Source: Paucidesulfovibrio longus DSM 6739 (GTDB lineage: Bacteria > Desulfobacterota > Desulfovibrionia > Desulfovibrionales > Desulfovibrionaceae). Taken from it: a stretch of 64,000 nt of DNA. Positions 55,347 to 61,915 of this stretch are shown piece after piece. A model generated the notes under the pieces. The model saw only the letters and a list, made by a program, of their open reading frames with translations. It was not told the origin of the DNA and did no database searches. The DNA lies in the NCBI RefSeq assembly GCF_000420485.1, contig NZ_ATVA01000016.1:250501-314500 (forward strand), written 5' to 3'. Position 1 is the stretch's first letter, and every line of letters begins with the position of its first letter. A program made the translations under genes and the position numbers.

Positions 55347-56876
55347 GTGCCCCTGCTTTGCCTTCTCGCCGTTCTTGGCGCTTTCATGGGTTATCCCAAC
55401 CCCTGGGTCCACCTGCCCCCGCTGATGCTGCTCTACCCGGCGGCGCTCTGTCTGATCGCCTTTCGCGCCACAGGTTCGGCCAAGGCTTTTTTCTGGTCGC
55501 TGCTGGCGGCGGTCCTGGCGCACACGGCTTGCCTCTACTGGGTGGCCGCTCCTGTCGCGCAGTACGGCGGCCTGCCCTGGTGGCTGGCCCTTCCTTGTCC
55601 TGTCGGAGTGTCGCTGATCATGGGCCTTTACGGAGCCGTCTTCGGCTGGGCCCTCCACCGCGCCGCAAAACGCCTTCCCCCTCTGCTACTCTGCTTTTTC
55701 GCGGGCACGCTCTGGACAGCCCTGGAACAGACCGGCTCCTGGCTGTTCAGCGGCTTTCCCTGGGTCACGCTTTCCGCAGCCTTTGCGCCCTGGCCCTTGT
55801 TCATTCAGGCAGCGTCCCTCGTCGGCGCGTACGGCCTGTCCGGCCTGTTCGTCAGCCTCGTGACGGCGCTGACGCTCTGGAACACGGCTCGTTCGCCTCG
55901 CCTTCTCGTGCTTTTCCTCTGCCTGTTCCTGCTCGGTTTCGGTGCCTACCGCATGGCGGGATTCGCCCCATCCGGCGTGGACAAGCGCATCGCCCTGATC
56001 CAGGGCAACATCGACCAGGGCGAGAAATGGGAAGCCCCCTTCCAAATCGGGACGGTGCAGAAATATCTTGATCTGAGCAGGAAGGCACTGGCTGACTCCT
56101 CTTCCACGGCCCAGGCCGAAGCAGCTCCGCCCGACCTGATCGTCTGGCCGGAAACCGCCATGCCGTTTTATCTTCAGGACGCCGGAGTCTACAGCAACCA
56201 AGTCACGGATTTCGTGCGCCGCATCGGGGTACCCCTGATCGCGGGCGCTCCTGCCTATACCCAGCGTGAAGACGGATCGTTCAACTTCTACAATCGTGCC
56301 TTCCTCTTCAATCCTCACGACAATTCCGTGAGCTGGTACGACAAGGTCCATCTCGTGCCTTTCGGCGAATACGTTCCGCTGAAGGAGTGGCTGCCCATCG
56401 AGAAGCTGGCCAGCGGCGCAGGAGATTACCTGCCCGGCGCCAAGCTCGATCCCCTGAACGCCGACGGCATGCATCTCGGCCTCCTGATCTGCTACGAGGC
56501 CATCTTCCCGGAGCTGGCGCAGGAACGCGTGGCCAGGGGGGCGGACATCCTCGTCAACATCAGCAACGACGCCTGGTTCGGCCGCTCCTCCGCGCCCTGG
56601 CAGCACCTGGCCCAGACTCGGATGCGCGCAGTGGAGCAGTGCCGTTGGATAGCGCGGGGCACCAACACCGGCATCAGCGCCTTCATCGACCCTCTCGGCC
56701 GTCTTGCGGCTTCCTCGGACCTCTTCCAGGACGAAGTCTTGACCTGGGCGGTCAAACCTGTTCATGTGACTACGTTCTACCATGACGCCTACCATTGGCT
56801 GAACGTGGCGGCGTACCTTCTGGCCGGGCTGATGTCGGCCTGGGTGGTGCTCTGCCCGGCCTTGCGGCGGCCTTAA
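55347..56876 (+). CDS. lnt: Apolipoprotein N-acyltransferase
   Basis: Adds the third acyl chain to lipoproteins in the inner membrane. The 509-residue protein has about six to seven N-terminal membrane segments followed by the periplasmic nitrilase domain. The catalytic triad is visible: E269 in VWPETAMP, K333 in DKVHLVPFGEYVP and C382 in ICYEAIFPE. The start is a GTG with AAGG 8 nt upstream, 2 nt after the CBS-protein stop. The window encodes two lipoproteins (2425, 35939) that would be its substrates. Confidence 0.96.
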   Translation: MPLLCLLAVLGAFMGYPNPWVHLPPLMLLYPAALCLIAFRATGSAKAFFWSLLAAVLAHTACLYWVAAPVAQYGGLPWWLALPCPVGVSLIMGLYGAVFGWALHRAAKRLPPLLLCFFAGTLWTALEQTGSWLFSGFPWVTLSAAFAPWPLFIQAASLVGAYGLSGLFVSLVTALTLWNTARSPRLLVLFLCLFLLGFGAYRMAGFAPSGVDKRIALIQGNIDQGEKWEAPFQIGTVQKYLDLSRKALADSSSTAQAEAAPPDLIVWPETAMPFYLQDAGVYSNQVTDFVRRIGVPLIAGAPAYTQREDGSFNFYNRAFLFNPHDNSVSWYDKVHLVPFGEYVPLKEWLPIEKLASGAGDYLPGAKLDPLNADGMHLGLLICYEAIFPELAQERVARGADILVNISNDAWFGRSSAPWQHLAQTRMRAVEQCRWIARGTNTGISAFIDPLGRLAASSDLFQDEVLTWAVKPVHVTTFYHDAYHWLNVAAYLLAGLMSAWVVLCPALRRP

Positions 56877-56896: not shown

Positions 56897-58010
56897 ATGC
56901 ACCAGTATTCCGAGCTCAAAGGCAACAGCGCCACTCTTTTCGGCAAGTACGAGACTCTTTGGGGGCGGCTTTGACTACTCCAAGCTCGCCGAACGTCTCG
57001 CCGCGATAGAAACCCAGATTTCCCAGCCCGACGCCTGGAACCAACCGGAAAAGCTCACGCCTGTCCTGCGGGAAAAGAGCCAGCTGGAACACAAGCTGTC
57101 CACCTACGACGGCCTGCGCAAGGCCAAGGAGGATCTTGAGGTCTGGTTGGAGCTGGCCGCCGAGGACGAAGCTTCCCTGGACGACCTGCATCGCTCCATG
57201 AAGGAGTTCGAGAAGATTCTCCGCCAGACCGAGATGGCCACGCTTCTCGGCGGCGAGCAGGACGGCAGCAACGCCATTCTCGAAATCCATCCCGGCGCAG
57301 GCGGCGTGGAATCCCAGGACTGGGCCGAGATGCTGCTGCGCATGTACACGCGCTGGGCCGAGGACAAGGATTTCAAGCTCACGGTGCTCGACGTGCAGCC
57401 TGCCGAGGAAGCGGGCATCAAGAACGCCGCCTTGCAGATCGAAGGCCCCTACGCCTATGGATTTTTGCGCGGCGAGGCCGGAATCCACCGCCTGATCCGC
57501 ATTTCCCCGTTCGACGCATCCGGGAGACGGCACACCTCGTTCGCTTCGGTGGACGTCTATCCCGATGTGGACGACGACATAGAAATCGAGGTCCGCGAGG
57601 AAGATCTTCGCGTCGATGTGTTCAGGGCCAGCGGTCCGGGCGGTCAGCATGTGAACAAGACCAACTCCGCCGTGCGCATCACCCACCTGCCGACCAACAT
57701 AGTGGTGCAGTGCCAGAATGAAAAATCCCAGCTGCGCAACCGCCAGACGGCCATGAAGATGCTCAAGGCCCGATTGTATGAGCAGGAACTGCGCAAGCGC
57801 GAAGAGTCCCAGCGCGTGGATTACGCCAGCAAGGACGCGATCAATTTCGGAAGCCAGATCAGAACGTACACGCTCCAGCCCTACCGGCTGGTCAAGGACC
57901 ACCGTTCGAACACCGAGGACGGCAACGTGGACGCCGTATTGGACGGCGCGCTGGACCGACTCATGCGCAGCTACCTCTTGTACGCCCATGCCGGAAAACA
58001 GAACGCCTGA
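56897..58010 (+). CDS. prfB: Peptide chain release factor 2, with +1 programmed frameshift
   Basis: Terminates translation at UAA and UGA. Zero-frame translation from the ATG at 56897 gives 25 codons up to CTT followed by TGA at 56972-56974; the rest continues in the +1 frame from GAC at 56973 to the stop at 58010. The joined product, about 370 residues, has the UGA-recognising SPF tripeptide in ISPFDASG and the GGQ motif in SGPGGQHVNKT. Release factor 2 thereby controls its own level: low RF2 slows the stop and favours the shift. The gene is intact despite the frame change. Confidence 0.97.
56961..56975 (+). other. RF2 recoding site
   Basis: GGGGG (56961-56965), three nucleotides, then CTT TGA C. 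Both the slippery CTT and the spacing from the internal Shine-Dalgarno-like run match the E. coli prfB site (AGGGGG-N3-CTTTGAC). Confidence 0.95.
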
Positions 58011-58899: not shown

Positions 58900-59760
58900 A
58901 TGATCAACCCGAACATGACTCTGAGCCTGGCCGTCATGAGCGGCAAAGGCGGCGTCGGCAAGACGAGCATTTCGCTGAACCTCGGCTATGCGCTCCACGC
59001 CGCGGGTCTGAAGACCTTGCTTATGGATTGCGACCTGGGGCTCGCCAACCTGGACGTGCTCCTGGGCATCGCCCCGGAGAAGAATCTTCAGGATCTGCTC
59101 AAGCACGACATCGACACCTCGGACGTGGCGGTCGCCGTGGAGCCGGACGGGCTGGACGTGCTCCCCGCGGCCAGCGGCGTGCCGGAGCTTGTGGAAATGG
59201 ATGAAGACATGCAGAACGTCATGCTGGACAAGATCGTCCAGCTTGCCGGAAGCTACAACATGCTCATCCTCGACCTGGGCGCCGGCATCAGCCGAACCGT
59301 CATGACCTTCGCCTCCATGGCGCAGCTTCGTCTGGTAGTGGTCACGCCGGAGCCGACCTCGCTCACGGACGGCTACGCCGTCATCAAGGTGCTGGCCACG
59401 GAGCACGGCGTGCGTGATTTCCTGGTCGTGGTCAACCAGGTGGAATCCAAGGCCGAGGCCGAGCGCACCTTCACCCGGCTGTCCGAAGCCTGCAAGACCT
59501 TCCTGGGGATCGAGATCCGCAATCTCGGACACATACGCGACGACCGCAATGTTTCCGAAGCGGTCCGGCGCCAGAAGGCGTTGCTGAAAATCGCGCCTTC
59601 CTCGCCCGCGGCCCAGGATATCGTCAAGCTCGGAAGAATATTTCTGCGATATCGGACTGATAACGCTGAGAGCATAGCGCAGCGTCCTGTGCTTAAACAA
59701 TTTCCGGGGACGAGGCGTAATTTGGGCTTGACGGAAGTCCCTGTTTTTCGGCATAGATAA
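58900..59760 (+). CDS. MinD/ParA-family ATPase, FlhG-like
   Basis: A 286-residue P-loop ATPase of the MinD superfamily. The deviant Walker A is SGKGGVGKTS at 14-23, switch I is DCDLGLANLDVLLG, and Walker B LILDLGAGIS. The sequence resembles FlhG/YlxH, which control flagellar number and place, more than cell-division MinD, whose C-terminal amphipathic helix is not obvious here. It sits next to a diguanylate cyclase. The ATG at 58900 has AGGATCC upstream; an ATG at 58915 is an alternative. Confidence 0.87.
   Translation: MINPNMTLSLAVMSGKGGVGKTSISLNLGYALHAAGLKTLLMDCDLGLANLDVLLGIAPEKNLQDLLKHDIDTSDVAVAVEPDGLDVLPAASGVPELVEMDEDMQNVMLDKIVQLAGSYNMLILDLGAGISRTVMTFASMAQLRLVVVTPEPTSLTDGYAVIKVLATEHGVRDFLVVVNQVESKAEAERTFTRLSEACKTFLGIEIRNLGHIRDDRNVSEAVRRQKALLKIAPSSPAAQDIVKLGRIFLRYRTDNAESIAQRPVLKQFPGTRRNLGLTEVPVFRHR
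59728..59757 (+). promoter_or_regulatory. Candidate promoter of the HU/IHF-selenoprotein unit
   Basis: TTGACG (59728-59733), 18 nt, CATAGA (59752-59757). It overlaps the 3' end of the MinD-like gene and leaves about 65 nt before the next start. Confidence 0.4.
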
Positions 59761-59829: not shown

Positions 59830-60105
59830 ATGAACAAGAGCGAACTGATTAAGGCACTGGCCGAGCAAAAAAAGCTCCATGTGGATGAGTCCACCAAGAT
59901 CGTCAGCGCGTTCATCGATTCCATCAAGGAAGCGCTTGTGCGCGGAGACCGTGTGGAAATCCGCGGATTCGGCAGTTTCAAGATCAAAGATTACGAAGGC
60001 TATGTCGGCCGCAACCCCAAGACGGGCGACGTCGTGCACGTACATCCGAAGAAGCTGCCTTTCTTCCGTCCCGGCAAAGAATTGAAGGAATTCATCAACG
60101 GTTGA
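59830..60105 (+). CDS. HU/IHF-family DNA-binding protein
   Basis: A 91-residue DNA-bending protein starting MNKSELIKALAEQ. The arm GFGSFKIKDYEGYVGRNPKTG is typical; the tail FFRPGKELKEFING is close to IHF-beta, so it could be either an HU or an IHF subunit. No clear Shine-Dalgarno precedes the ATG (ggagcccac). The selenoprotein gene starts 1 nt after its stop, so the two are cotranscribed. Confidence 0.93.
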   Translation: MNKSELIKALAEQKKLHVDESTKIVSAFIDSIKEALVRGDRVEIRGFGSFKIKDYEGYVGRNPKTGDVVHVHPKKLPFFRPGKELKEFING

Positions 60106-60106
60106 T

Positions 60107-60985
60107 ATGCGTATACGAATTTTGTTTCTGCTGGCTGCGATGCTTTTCGCCGCCAGCACTTCTGACGCGCTCGCTGAAAGCTCCCTGACGATCCTCTACA
60201 CCGGCAACAATTACGGAACGCTTCGCCCCTGCCCCACCTGAGGCGGCCGAACCGTCGGCGGCGTGGCCCGGAGGGCCACCTTTCTCAACTTGGCGAGGAA
60301 AGACCAACCCAAGAATGTTCCCCTGCTGACGTTGGCCGGAGGCTACGAGTTCGGCCGTGAGGCGCTCGGCTCCAAGGACGCCGAAAGCCTCAAGGCTTTG
60401 GCCGTCAGTTACGGAATGATGGGGTACGATCTCGGCCTTCTCACCGGATTCGAACTCAAGGAATTCAAAGAAAACGGCCTGACGCCCCCCGACCATTGGG
60501 TGCATCCCGATGAAGTGCGCTTCATGCGTCTGGATCGGGACGGGGTCGCCGTCGGCGTGCTTCTGTTTCCCGAGATGCCCGCCGAGGCCAAGACGCCTCC
60601 GCAGCGCGTGCTCAAGGAAATCGAGAATATCTTGCGGCAGCAGCGCGGCAAGGTGGACCTGCTCGTGGGCCTGTCCCCCTGGGGGTTGTGGGTCGAAAAA
60701 ACCTACCTCGAATCCGGAGCCGACACGCCCGACATTTTGTTCGGCAGCGGTCCCGGCGTGGAGGTTCCCGGCAGCATCATAGCCGGCGGCCGGACATTCT
60801 GGACCCGACCCTATGCCAAGGGCAAAAGCGTGACGCGCATCGACATTCTCGATCTGCCGCGCGGCAAGGCATCCTTCGCATGGGCCGAGAACGGAAACAT
60901 CCGGATCGAATCGCCCGCATTGACTGACAGTTATATTGAAGATATTGATGTTCTTTCCGCATTAGTCGGTGCCGGTGCCGAATAA
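60107..60985 (+). CDS. Putative selenoprotein, secreted, related to the 5'-nucleotidase/UshA fold
   Basis: A 292-residue product if the in-frame TGA at 60239-60241 (codon 45) is read as selenocysteine. It starts with a signal peptide (MRIRILFLLAAMLFAAS, cleavage near ALA). The Sec lies in RPCPTUGG, giving a Cys-x-x-Sec pair (C42, U45). The preceding LTILYTGNNYGTLRPC and following GGVARRATFL resemble the start of metallophosphoesterase/5'-nucleotidase proteins (TGNNxGxLxPC ... GGxxRRA), but the metal-binding His and Asp motifs of active members are absent. It is probably a periplasmic thiol/selenol redox protein. The reading frame before and after TGA is GC-rich at third positions and continuous in both parts. 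Confidence 0.82.
60239..60279 (+). promoter_or_regulatory. Candidate bacterial SECIS element
   Basis: The UGA at 60239-60241 is followed by GTGGCCC (60263-60269) and GGGCCAC (60273-60279), 7-bp arms with the loop GGA. The apical loop lies 28 nt after UGA and opens with G, meeting the spacing (about 16-37 nt) and loop rule for SelB-recognised hairpins. Confidence 0.75.
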
Positions 60986-61030: not shown

Positions 61031-61915
61031 ATGAACTTCAGCGGCGCGTTCACCGCATTGGTCACGCCTTTCCGGGATGGTGCCATCGACGAGGACGCAT
61101 ACCGCGCCCTGATCGAATGGCAGATCGAACAAGGAATCGACGGCGTCGTCCCCTGTGGAACCACCGGCGAAGCAGCGACCATGACTCATGACGAACAGGG
61201 CGAGGTCATTCGCATTTGCGTCGACCAGGTCAAAGGACGCATTCCTGTCATCGCCGGGGCGGGCTCCAACAACACCAAGGAAGCCATCCAGCTTACCCAG
61301 CTCGCCAAGAGGGCCGGAGCAGACGCCGCCCTTCAGATCACCCCCTACTACAACAAACCCACGCCCGGCGGGCTGGTGGCCCATTTCAAGGCCATTGCCG
61401 CCGAGTGCTCGATCCCCATGGTGCTCTACAACGTTCCCGGACGCACCGGCCTGAACTGTCTTCCGGCCACTGTCGCGCGCATCGCCCGCGAAGTGCCCGA
61501 AGTCAAGGCCGTCAAAGAGGCCACGGGCAATCTTTGCCAGTGCGCCGAGGTCGTGGAGCTCTGCGGCCCGGACTTCGCCCTGCTCTCCGGAGACGATTTC
61601 ACGGTTCTGCCTCTTTTGGCAGTCGGCGGCTCCGGCGTGATTTCGGTGGTTTCCAACATCGTTCCGGGACTGATGAGCGGAATGTGCAAGGCGTTCGCCG
61701 AGAAGGACACCAAAAAGGCGCTCGAACTGAGCCTGAAGATGGCTCCTCTCAGCCGGGCCATGTTCATGGAAACCAACCCCATCCCCGTGAAGACCGCCCT
61801 TTGCTATATGGGCGTGATCGAGCGTGCGGAATTCCGCCTGCCCATGGTCCCGCTGCTTGAGGAAAACCGCGAACCCTTGAAGAAGGTGCTGCGCAACAGC
61901 GGCCTGATGGCTTGA
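61031..61915 (+). CDS. dapA: 4-hydroxy-tetrahydrodipicolinate synthase
   Basis: Condenses pyruvate with aspartate semialdehyde, the first committed step to diaminopimelate and lysine. The 294-residue protein has GTTGEAAT at 43-50, the catalytic Y133 in YNVPGRTG and the Schiff-base K162 in VKEATGN. AAGGAGG is 6 nt ahead of the ATG. It is followed by a strong terminator and is not linked to lysA. Confidence 0.97.
   Translation: MNFSGAFTALVTPFRDGAIDEDAYRALIEWQIEQGIDGVVPCGTTGEAATMTHDEQGEVIRICVDQVKGRIPVIAGAGSNNTKEAIQLTQLAKRAGADAALQITPYYNKPTPGGLVAHFKAIAAECSIPMVLYNVPGRTGLNCLPATVARIAREVPEVKAVKEATGNLCQCAEVVELCGPDFALLSGDDFTVLPLLAVGGSGVISVVSNIVPGLMSGMCKAFAEKDTKKALELSLKMAPLSRAMFMETNPIPVKTALCYMGVIERAEFRLPMVPLLEENREPLKKVLRNSGLMA

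Follow-up and report, generated by a model that had tools for sequence, protein, structure and literature searches.

UshA-like selenoproteins are listed in several papers. In the excerpts available, the 2008 GOS paper (PMC2398784) tabulates a COG0737 UshA-like family with a CxU motif, PMC9312934 lists the CxU form, and a 2026 review (PMC13188914) gives a table row to the NCBIfam family NF049981, with the motif CxxU and the remark "GenBank annotated". The accessible portions of open-licence PMC papers held no function, gene context or structure for NF049981, here called UshA-like selenoprotein family 2 (UshA2), and the family was not found in PMC8318568. A second described system that bears on what follows is the CcmFHI/NrfEFG complex, in which, according to the available part of PMC12285233, CcmH/NrfF is the thiol reductase.

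The window analysed here, a stretch of 64,000 nucleotides from Paucidesulfovibrio longus DSM 6739, carries a gene that the original prediction took to encode a selenoprotein of no described function. We likewise found no described function, but the prediction had missed that the family was already named and tabulated: the window gene belongs to a known family, its product matching NF049981 with 286 bits against a cut-off of 140 (residues 27-285 on positions 1-260 of the 262 in the model), and NF049981 is matched by 82 of 82 aligned members. Our additions are the comparative tests, the absence of the metal site, the gene block and the contexts of paralogues and fusion proteins. The gene and its elements are the following:

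60107..60985, + strand: UshA-like selenoprotein family 2 gene, 292 amino acids with Sec45; signal-peptide-like N-terminus at about residues 1-24, metallophosphatase-fold domain at residues 25-292
60230..60232, + strand: codon of Cys42, partner of Sec45 in the motif P-C-P-x-U-G; Cys kept in 94 of 95 sequences
60239..60241, + strand: in-frame UGA, codon 45, read as selenocysteine on the basis of the Sec/Cys column and the tree
60263..60279, + strand: bacterial SECIS-like hairpin of 7 bp with loop GGA, spanning codons V53-T58; the loop starts at +29 after the UGA

The signal-peptide-like protein had been described as interrupted by a TGA at codon 45 in RPCPT-UGA-GG, and its coordinates, frame and motif were as claimed, the residues around codon 45 reading PCPT-U-GG. 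The hairpin, GTGGCCC-GGA-GGGCCAC, was also found as described, 22-38 nt past the UGA with G as the first base of its loop. A protein search returned one copy of the gene in the host genome (G000; 19 contigs, completeness 99.99). UGA is also an ordinary stop here, the upstream HU/IHF-type gene ending with it, and 102 frames in the window, the selenoprotein gene counted among them, fit the pattern of 35 or more open codons, a TGA and 100 or more open codons. The frame, TGA and hairpin of a single gene, taken without comparison, are weak evidence of selenocysteine.

We aligned 95 sequences, including that of the window, and found that position 45 is UGA in 82, UGC in 13 and anything else in none; the sample was not random (the best 30 matches, mostly one or two per genus, plus 27 genomes partly chosen for lacking selA), so that 13/95 is no population rate. 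The check for homologues with unrelated residues at this position thus returned only Cys or Sec. The 94 other copies are 22-67% identical to the window protein, the relative at 67% lying on a contig labelled Desulfovibrio sp. (the sole relative from a contig scan with the window protein). Cys42, the other half of the predicted Cys-x-x-Sec pair, is present in 94 of the 95, and P41, G51, G52, R55 and R56 are invariant. Rows from duplicate loci (L001-L003, L017, L023, L032, L049, L050, L052 and L053) and fragmented copies (L144, L145, L147 and L148) were dropped before counting, and the 95 cover fetched loci only, further matches of the order-wide NF049981 search being left out. In that search 166 of the 297 genomes of the order matched at E <= 0.001, 161 of them above the family cut-off; across the phylum, 139 of 345 genomes matched, with 5 above the cut-off, all from the window's own family. 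A tree of the 95 rows, computed with Sec coded as Cys, shows the Cys groups branching from among the Sec groups and requires at least five Sec/Cys changes, a number as low being reached in 0 of 500 label shuffles. One divergent member, L143 (genome G187), reads P-E-A-G-U, having lost Cys42 and kept the UGA and the hairpin. At L090, L091 and L092, tandem UshA2 pairs of one Cys and one Sec copy lie behind the HU gene.

The hairpin divides the two classes. A stem of at least five pairs at the fixed position is present in 77/82 Sec copies and 2/13 Cys copies (Fisher 3.9e-9, a test that treats the rows as independent although they are related), and in 82 of 82 Sec copies the loop begins with the second base of the R55 codon, at +29 from the UGA. 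When codons were drawn synonymously, the stem arose in 11.4 of the 82 on average and in 24 at most (500 draws), so that the observed 77 shows the hairpin to be selected beyond the amino acid motif. The R56 codon ends in G in 76/82 Sec and 4/13 Cys copies; the exact stem is missing from 5 of the 82 Sec copies. Plain folding energy carried no such signal: the 39-nt minimum free energy did not separate the classes (mean -15.3 for Sec vs -15.7 for Cys copies; L127, negative in the motif search, was left out of this comparison only), and the local fold at the UGA was barely stabler than shuffled sequence (z -1.73; 13 of 200 shuffles equally stable). Rfam and tRNA scans of the window gave no match. 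It is the fixed-position stem and the codon null that reveal the SECIS signal, not folding energy.

Coding character on both sides of the TGA, as originally proposed, was borne out by comparison with L081, from which the window gene differs at codon positions 1/2/3 by 9/4/18 changes upstream of the UGA and 70/43/145 downstream. Taken together, divergence rich in third positions on both sides of the UGA, the Sec/Cys column and the split of the hairpin between classes settle the selenoprotein observation: by these sequence comparisons, the gene at 60107-60985 very probably encodes a selenium-containing protein. The contrary reading, in which there is no selenoprotein and the UGA is a sequencing error or a point at which translation ends or restarts at the GTG at 60263, can draw on the existence of the restart ORF and on the commonness of TGA-split open frames in the window, but it has to contend with a column in which 82 of 95 sequences share the UGA and the other 13 have TGC, and a product restarted there would lack the hydrophobic N-terminus together with the first strand and its conserved G37, P41 and C42; we regard its chance as negligible. 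An error at the TGA in particular is very unlikely, the same TGA standing in 81 other sequences. Sequencing error, readthrough and restart at 60263 were rejected on the strength of the 82/13 Sec/Cys column.

A search for the selenocysteine machinery found all four genes in the genome: selA (E 3.1e-179), selB (368 bits vs a cut-off of 242), selC, the tRNA-Sec gene (86.3 vs 47), and selD (324 bits vs 125), which itself has an in-frame TGA. Among the 166 family-bearing genomes, 15 gave no selA match, and these comprise 7 with the Cys form (G208, G209, G229, G232, G247, G248 and G255; completeness 86-97%), 6 with UGA (G013, G023, G047, G293, G222 and G270; drafts, completeness 84-94%) and 2 in which the codon was not read (G070 and G081). 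At 95% completeness or above, 4 of the 4 selA-less family-bearing genomes have Cys. G215, also a Cys genome, matches selA only in part (E 7.4e-63), and in clade g26 the Sec/Cys change goes with an apparent loss of selA, yet three g9 genomes (G082, G148 and G267) have selA and no stop. The presence of selA and the Sec form are linked as a trend, not cleanly.

The gene had been placed in one unit with an HU/IHF-type gene, and as a codirectional neighbor this gene was confirmed, the HU stop ending at 60105 and the selenoprotein starting at 60107, with HU at 37 of 40 loci. The surrounding genes form a conserved block:

55347..56876, + strand: lnt (apolipoprotein N-acyltransferase), named by eye from the sequence
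57147..58010, + strand: prfB (release factor 2), open part of the gene, named by eye from the sequence
58900..59760, + strand: MinD/ParA-type ATPase gene
59830..60105, + strand: HU/IHF-type DNA-binding protein gene, its UGA stop one base before the selenoprotein ATG
61031..61915, + strand: dapA, the downstream end of the block, named by eye from the sequence

The lnt-prfB-minD-HU-dapA/F block, whole or partial, is present at 38 of 40 loci (as a rule one locus per genus, with about 4 kb taken on each side, so that some genes may be cut off), and the two loci without any block gene are second copies (L084 and L105). Genes running in the same direction as UshA2 were lnt at 38 of the 40 loci, prfB at 38, HU at 37, the MinD-type ATPase at 36, dapA at 32 and dapF at 14. 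HU lies upstream of 40 of the 43 UshA2 copies at these loci. In 37 the distance between its stop and the start of UshA2 is -4 to 58 nt; the remaining three gaps, of 908-949 nt, belong to the downstream members of three tandem Cys/Sec pairs, judged by spacing. The prfB-minD-HU order is also kept in 11 of 18 family-less genomes; in 9 of these 11, dapA or dapF follows HU at a distance of 118-369 nt and UshA2 is without a match, and in the other 7 genomes the block was not seen. Since the block persists without it, the UshA2 gene is a separable part of what is a housekeeping block; at the main locus, no redox gene was noticed in the block. The prfB product reads UGA stops, and prfB shares the block with a UGA-recoded gene at 38 of 40 loci and stands also at the 11 block loci without the selenoprotein. 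We take DVU1864 of Desulfovibrio vulgaris to be the orthologue of the HU/IHF neighbor. In the part of PMC3897727 available to us, the gene next to the HU/IHF gene is not named.

The N-terminus is hydrophobic in 84 of the 95 sequences by a crude score applied to script-chosen starts, and it forms a helix at residues 2-16 in an AlphaFold2 model; the selenoprotein is probably exported to the periplasm. The model, built from 82 rows (pLDDT 94.6, pTM 0.90), agreed with the predicted UshA-like scaffold without metal ligands, residues 25-292 superposing in Foldseek and VIA-align on the catalytic domain of 5'-nucleotidases and SoxB. The top structural match was SoxB (2wdc; Z 25.1, 245 residues, 2.8 A), followed by a putative 5'-nucleotidase (3ive; Z 24.3) and UshA (2ush; Z 22.9), whereas sequence profiles matched more weakly (5h7w, E 9.6e-5). 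Escherichia coli UshA, a strong match in structure, aligned weakly as a profile (hhalign probability 22.6, E 9e-4), and in that alignment the columns of what we take, in identity and numbering, to be the UshA di-metal ligands (D41, H43, D84, N116, H217, H252 and Q254) hold N34, Y36, Y80, G114, P191, G215 and G217. Stray Asp or His residues do occur at ligand columns (for example, D34 in 7, H36 in 5, D80 in 6 and H191 in 2 of the 95), but position 215 is glycine in 95 of 95, and so no member keeps the ligand set. The C-terminal substrate-binding domain is also absent, the protein ending after the first domain and the alignments covering model residues 25-292. Because both the ligand set and the C-terminal nucleotidase domain are gone, classical metal hydrolysis by family 2 is unlikely. 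The model and the alignment together place the CPxU pair in the loop that follows the first strand, 6-11 residues past the places of two lost ligands.

The likeness to SoxB raises the alternative that the scaffold binds, or reductively releases, the sulfur of a persulfide, polysulfide or sulfonate on a periplasmic carrier. SoxB is the top structural match, the SoxB model is matched weakly by 2 of 82 aligned members, and the hosts look like relatives of Desulfovibrio; set against this, the metal ligands are lost, the lead of SoxB over the 5'-nucleotidases is slight (only about 1-2 Z units), and no SoxYZ-like carrier was noticed at the main locus. We hold sulfur handling of this kind to be quite unlikely. 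Pfam placed the window protein in no family at E <= 1, hence in no thioredoxin or CcmH domain, and gave only scattered weak matches for the 82 aligned members (at most 4 members per family, best E 0.012).

Hints at function came from the sister family, NF041198, and from paralogues. NF041198 proteins, taken from 12 loci, carry four C-terminal CxxCH motifs in 8 of the 8 that were readable, and 3 of 3 scanned matched Cytochrome_C554; no CxxCH occurs in family 2 (0 of 94 relatives). Among 25 weaker phylum loci (L054-L078), 17 matched the query. Seventeen remoter CxxU proteins (16 CPxU and one CHTU; 284-442 amino acids) are found in other families of the phylum (L054-L076). Ten of these proteins were scanned, and none reached the cut-off of either NF049981 or NF041198, which means that the CPxU group extends beyond the two curated families. 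Among the 17, L068 retains SNDTHG at the old metal-ligand site and may represent a stage between the phosphoesterase and the redox form.

Ten paralogue loci were picked from copies listed in the order-wide family searches. Five of them (L190, L191, L192, L197 and L198; three genera, two families) share the order CcmF/NrfE-like heme lyase, TPR protein, UshA2 in its Sec form and heavy-metal P-type (P1B) ATPase. The genes of this module were assigned by family searches on L190 and partly on L192 and L197, the rest by similarity, and the CcmF matches pass Pfam cut-offs but lie below the NCBIfam CcmF/NrfE models (377 vs 569 bits). A frame of the LRCxxC type of at least 60 residues was not found in the L190, L191, L192 and L198 stretches (14-17 kb each), and L197 has one, of 63 residues, that looks like chance. 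L190 also contains a Metal_resist protein and a rhodanese gene, and L197 a MerR regulator. At L193-L196, Cys-form paralogues are surrounded by genes of the prepilin/type II secretion type (Pfam run on L193 alone), with T2SS E/F-type genes beside the Cys-form UshA2 in L193 and L196. Lastly, L199 (6618-9780) reads thioredoxin, DsbD_TM, a split-frame UshA2, rhodanese and MauE/DoxX, the DsbD_TM protein being weakly like the selenoprotein TsoB (NF045694). The rhodanese genes in L190 and L199 and this weak likeness to TsoB would also fit a sulfur-handling role.

The adjoining lyase and TPR genes suggest that the CPxU domain might be a thiol or selenol reductase for apocytochromes, or serve other c-type cytochrome work, and that in the CcmF-TPR module it replaces the LRCxxC reductase CcmH/NrfF. 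This proposal draws on the five paralogue loci at which the CcmF/NrfE-like lyase, TPR protein and UshA2 adjoin, on the want of a gene-length LRCxxC frame near these modules, on the reductase role of CcmH/NrfF described above and on the fusion of the sister family to a tetraheme cytochrome. CcmH may, however, lie elsewhere in these genomes, given stretches of 14-17 kb; the main copy is not beside ccm genes; and the CcmF matches fall under the NCBIfam cut-offs. Genomes of the order without UshA2, to our knowledge, presumably also make c-type cytochromes. We consider the proposal unlikely. The ATPase of the same loci points in another direction, namely that Cys42 and Sec45 bind Zn, Cd, Cu or Hg as a soft-metal sensor or chaperone without redox chemistry. 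A heavy-metal P-type ATPase adjoins the Sec paralogue at 5 of the 10 loci (family search on L190 and L192), in company with the Metal_resist protein of L190 and the MerR regulator of L197; but only two soft ligands are conserved, no metal genes were noticed at the main locus, and Sec is rarely needed for metal binding alone, so that we rate a pure metal-binding role as very unlikely.

We conclude that the best explanation, and in our judgment a likely one, is that the gene encodes what is probably a periplasmic selenoprotein on a metal-less phosphatase scaffold, most likely a selenol/thiol oxidoreductase; its location, chemistry and partner are what we infer. At the UGA, which the hairpin follows closely, SelB and tRNA-Sec would bring in Sec45, a step strongly supported by the sequence comparisons. 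The model indicates a di-metal site that is gone and a C-P-x-U pair placed in the loop after the first strand. The thiol of C42 and the selenol of Sec would most likely cycle to and from a selenenylsulfide, and electrons or disulfides would probably be exchanged with periplasmic thiol or heme proteins, as is suggested by the cytochrome fused to the sister family and by the CcmF and thioredoxin-DsbD paralogue loci. Against such a redox role, 4 of the 10 paralogue loci are of the prepilin/type II secretion type and carry Cys forms, and L143 keeps the UGA without C42. The pilin-type loci thus lend the redox role no support, the ATPase leaves a metal role possible, and the main locus is neutral.

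A bolder extension, which we think unlikely, is that the UshA2 proteins form a class of selenol-disulfide oxidoreductases of the periplasm that do not have the thioredoxin fold, derived from a metal-less metallophosphatase and reducing apocytochromes or other thiol partners, and that CcmF-TPR-UshA2 is a heme-lyase complex in which the selenoprotein replaces CcmH/NrfF. What had been an unexplained catalogue entry becomes a testable case, in which Desulfovibrio-type bacteria would have put the scaffold of a metal hydrolase to use in selenium redox chemistry; it is made testable by the widespread block, the missing metal site, the cytochrome fused to the sister family and, at 6 of 10 paralogue loci, neighbors of the CcmF or thioredoxin/DsbD kind. 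The repeated Sec/Cys change, accompanied in clade g26 by the apparent selA loss, is a natural experiment on why Sec is kept.

How does the window protein compare with described systems? From NF049981, family 2, it shows no difference in membership, and its CxxU motif is as tabulated; the literature entry, as far as the available table and text go, does not describe function, gene block or paralogue contexts. NF041198 (family 1, PCGU/CxU), possibly the COG0737 UshA-like CxU group of the 2008 GOS study, resembles it in that residues 7-108 at the N-terminal end align and the Cys/Sec pair is similarly placed before GG-ARR, but the match is far below the cut-off (37.6 vs 275 bits), one residue fewer separates C and U, and the C-terminal tetraheme Cytochrome_C554 domain is a feature of NF041198 absent from the window protein. 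SoxB and the UshA/CD73 5'-nucleotidases share with it the N-terminal metallophosphatase fold (Z 22-25), and the GG-ARRA stretch is common to it and the 5'-nucleotidases, whereas in the window protein the metal-ligand and catalytic positions are replaced, the C-terminal substrate domain is missing and CPxU has been added. CcmH/NrfF and thioredoxin-type reductases, like family 2, have two redox residues spaced as CxxC/CxxU, and the CcmF, DsbD_TM and thioredoxin neighbors at some paralogue loci fit a role of the CcmH or thioredoxin type; unlike those reductases, the window protein has no Pfam thioredoxin or CcmH domain, and its predicted fold is that of a metallophosphatase.
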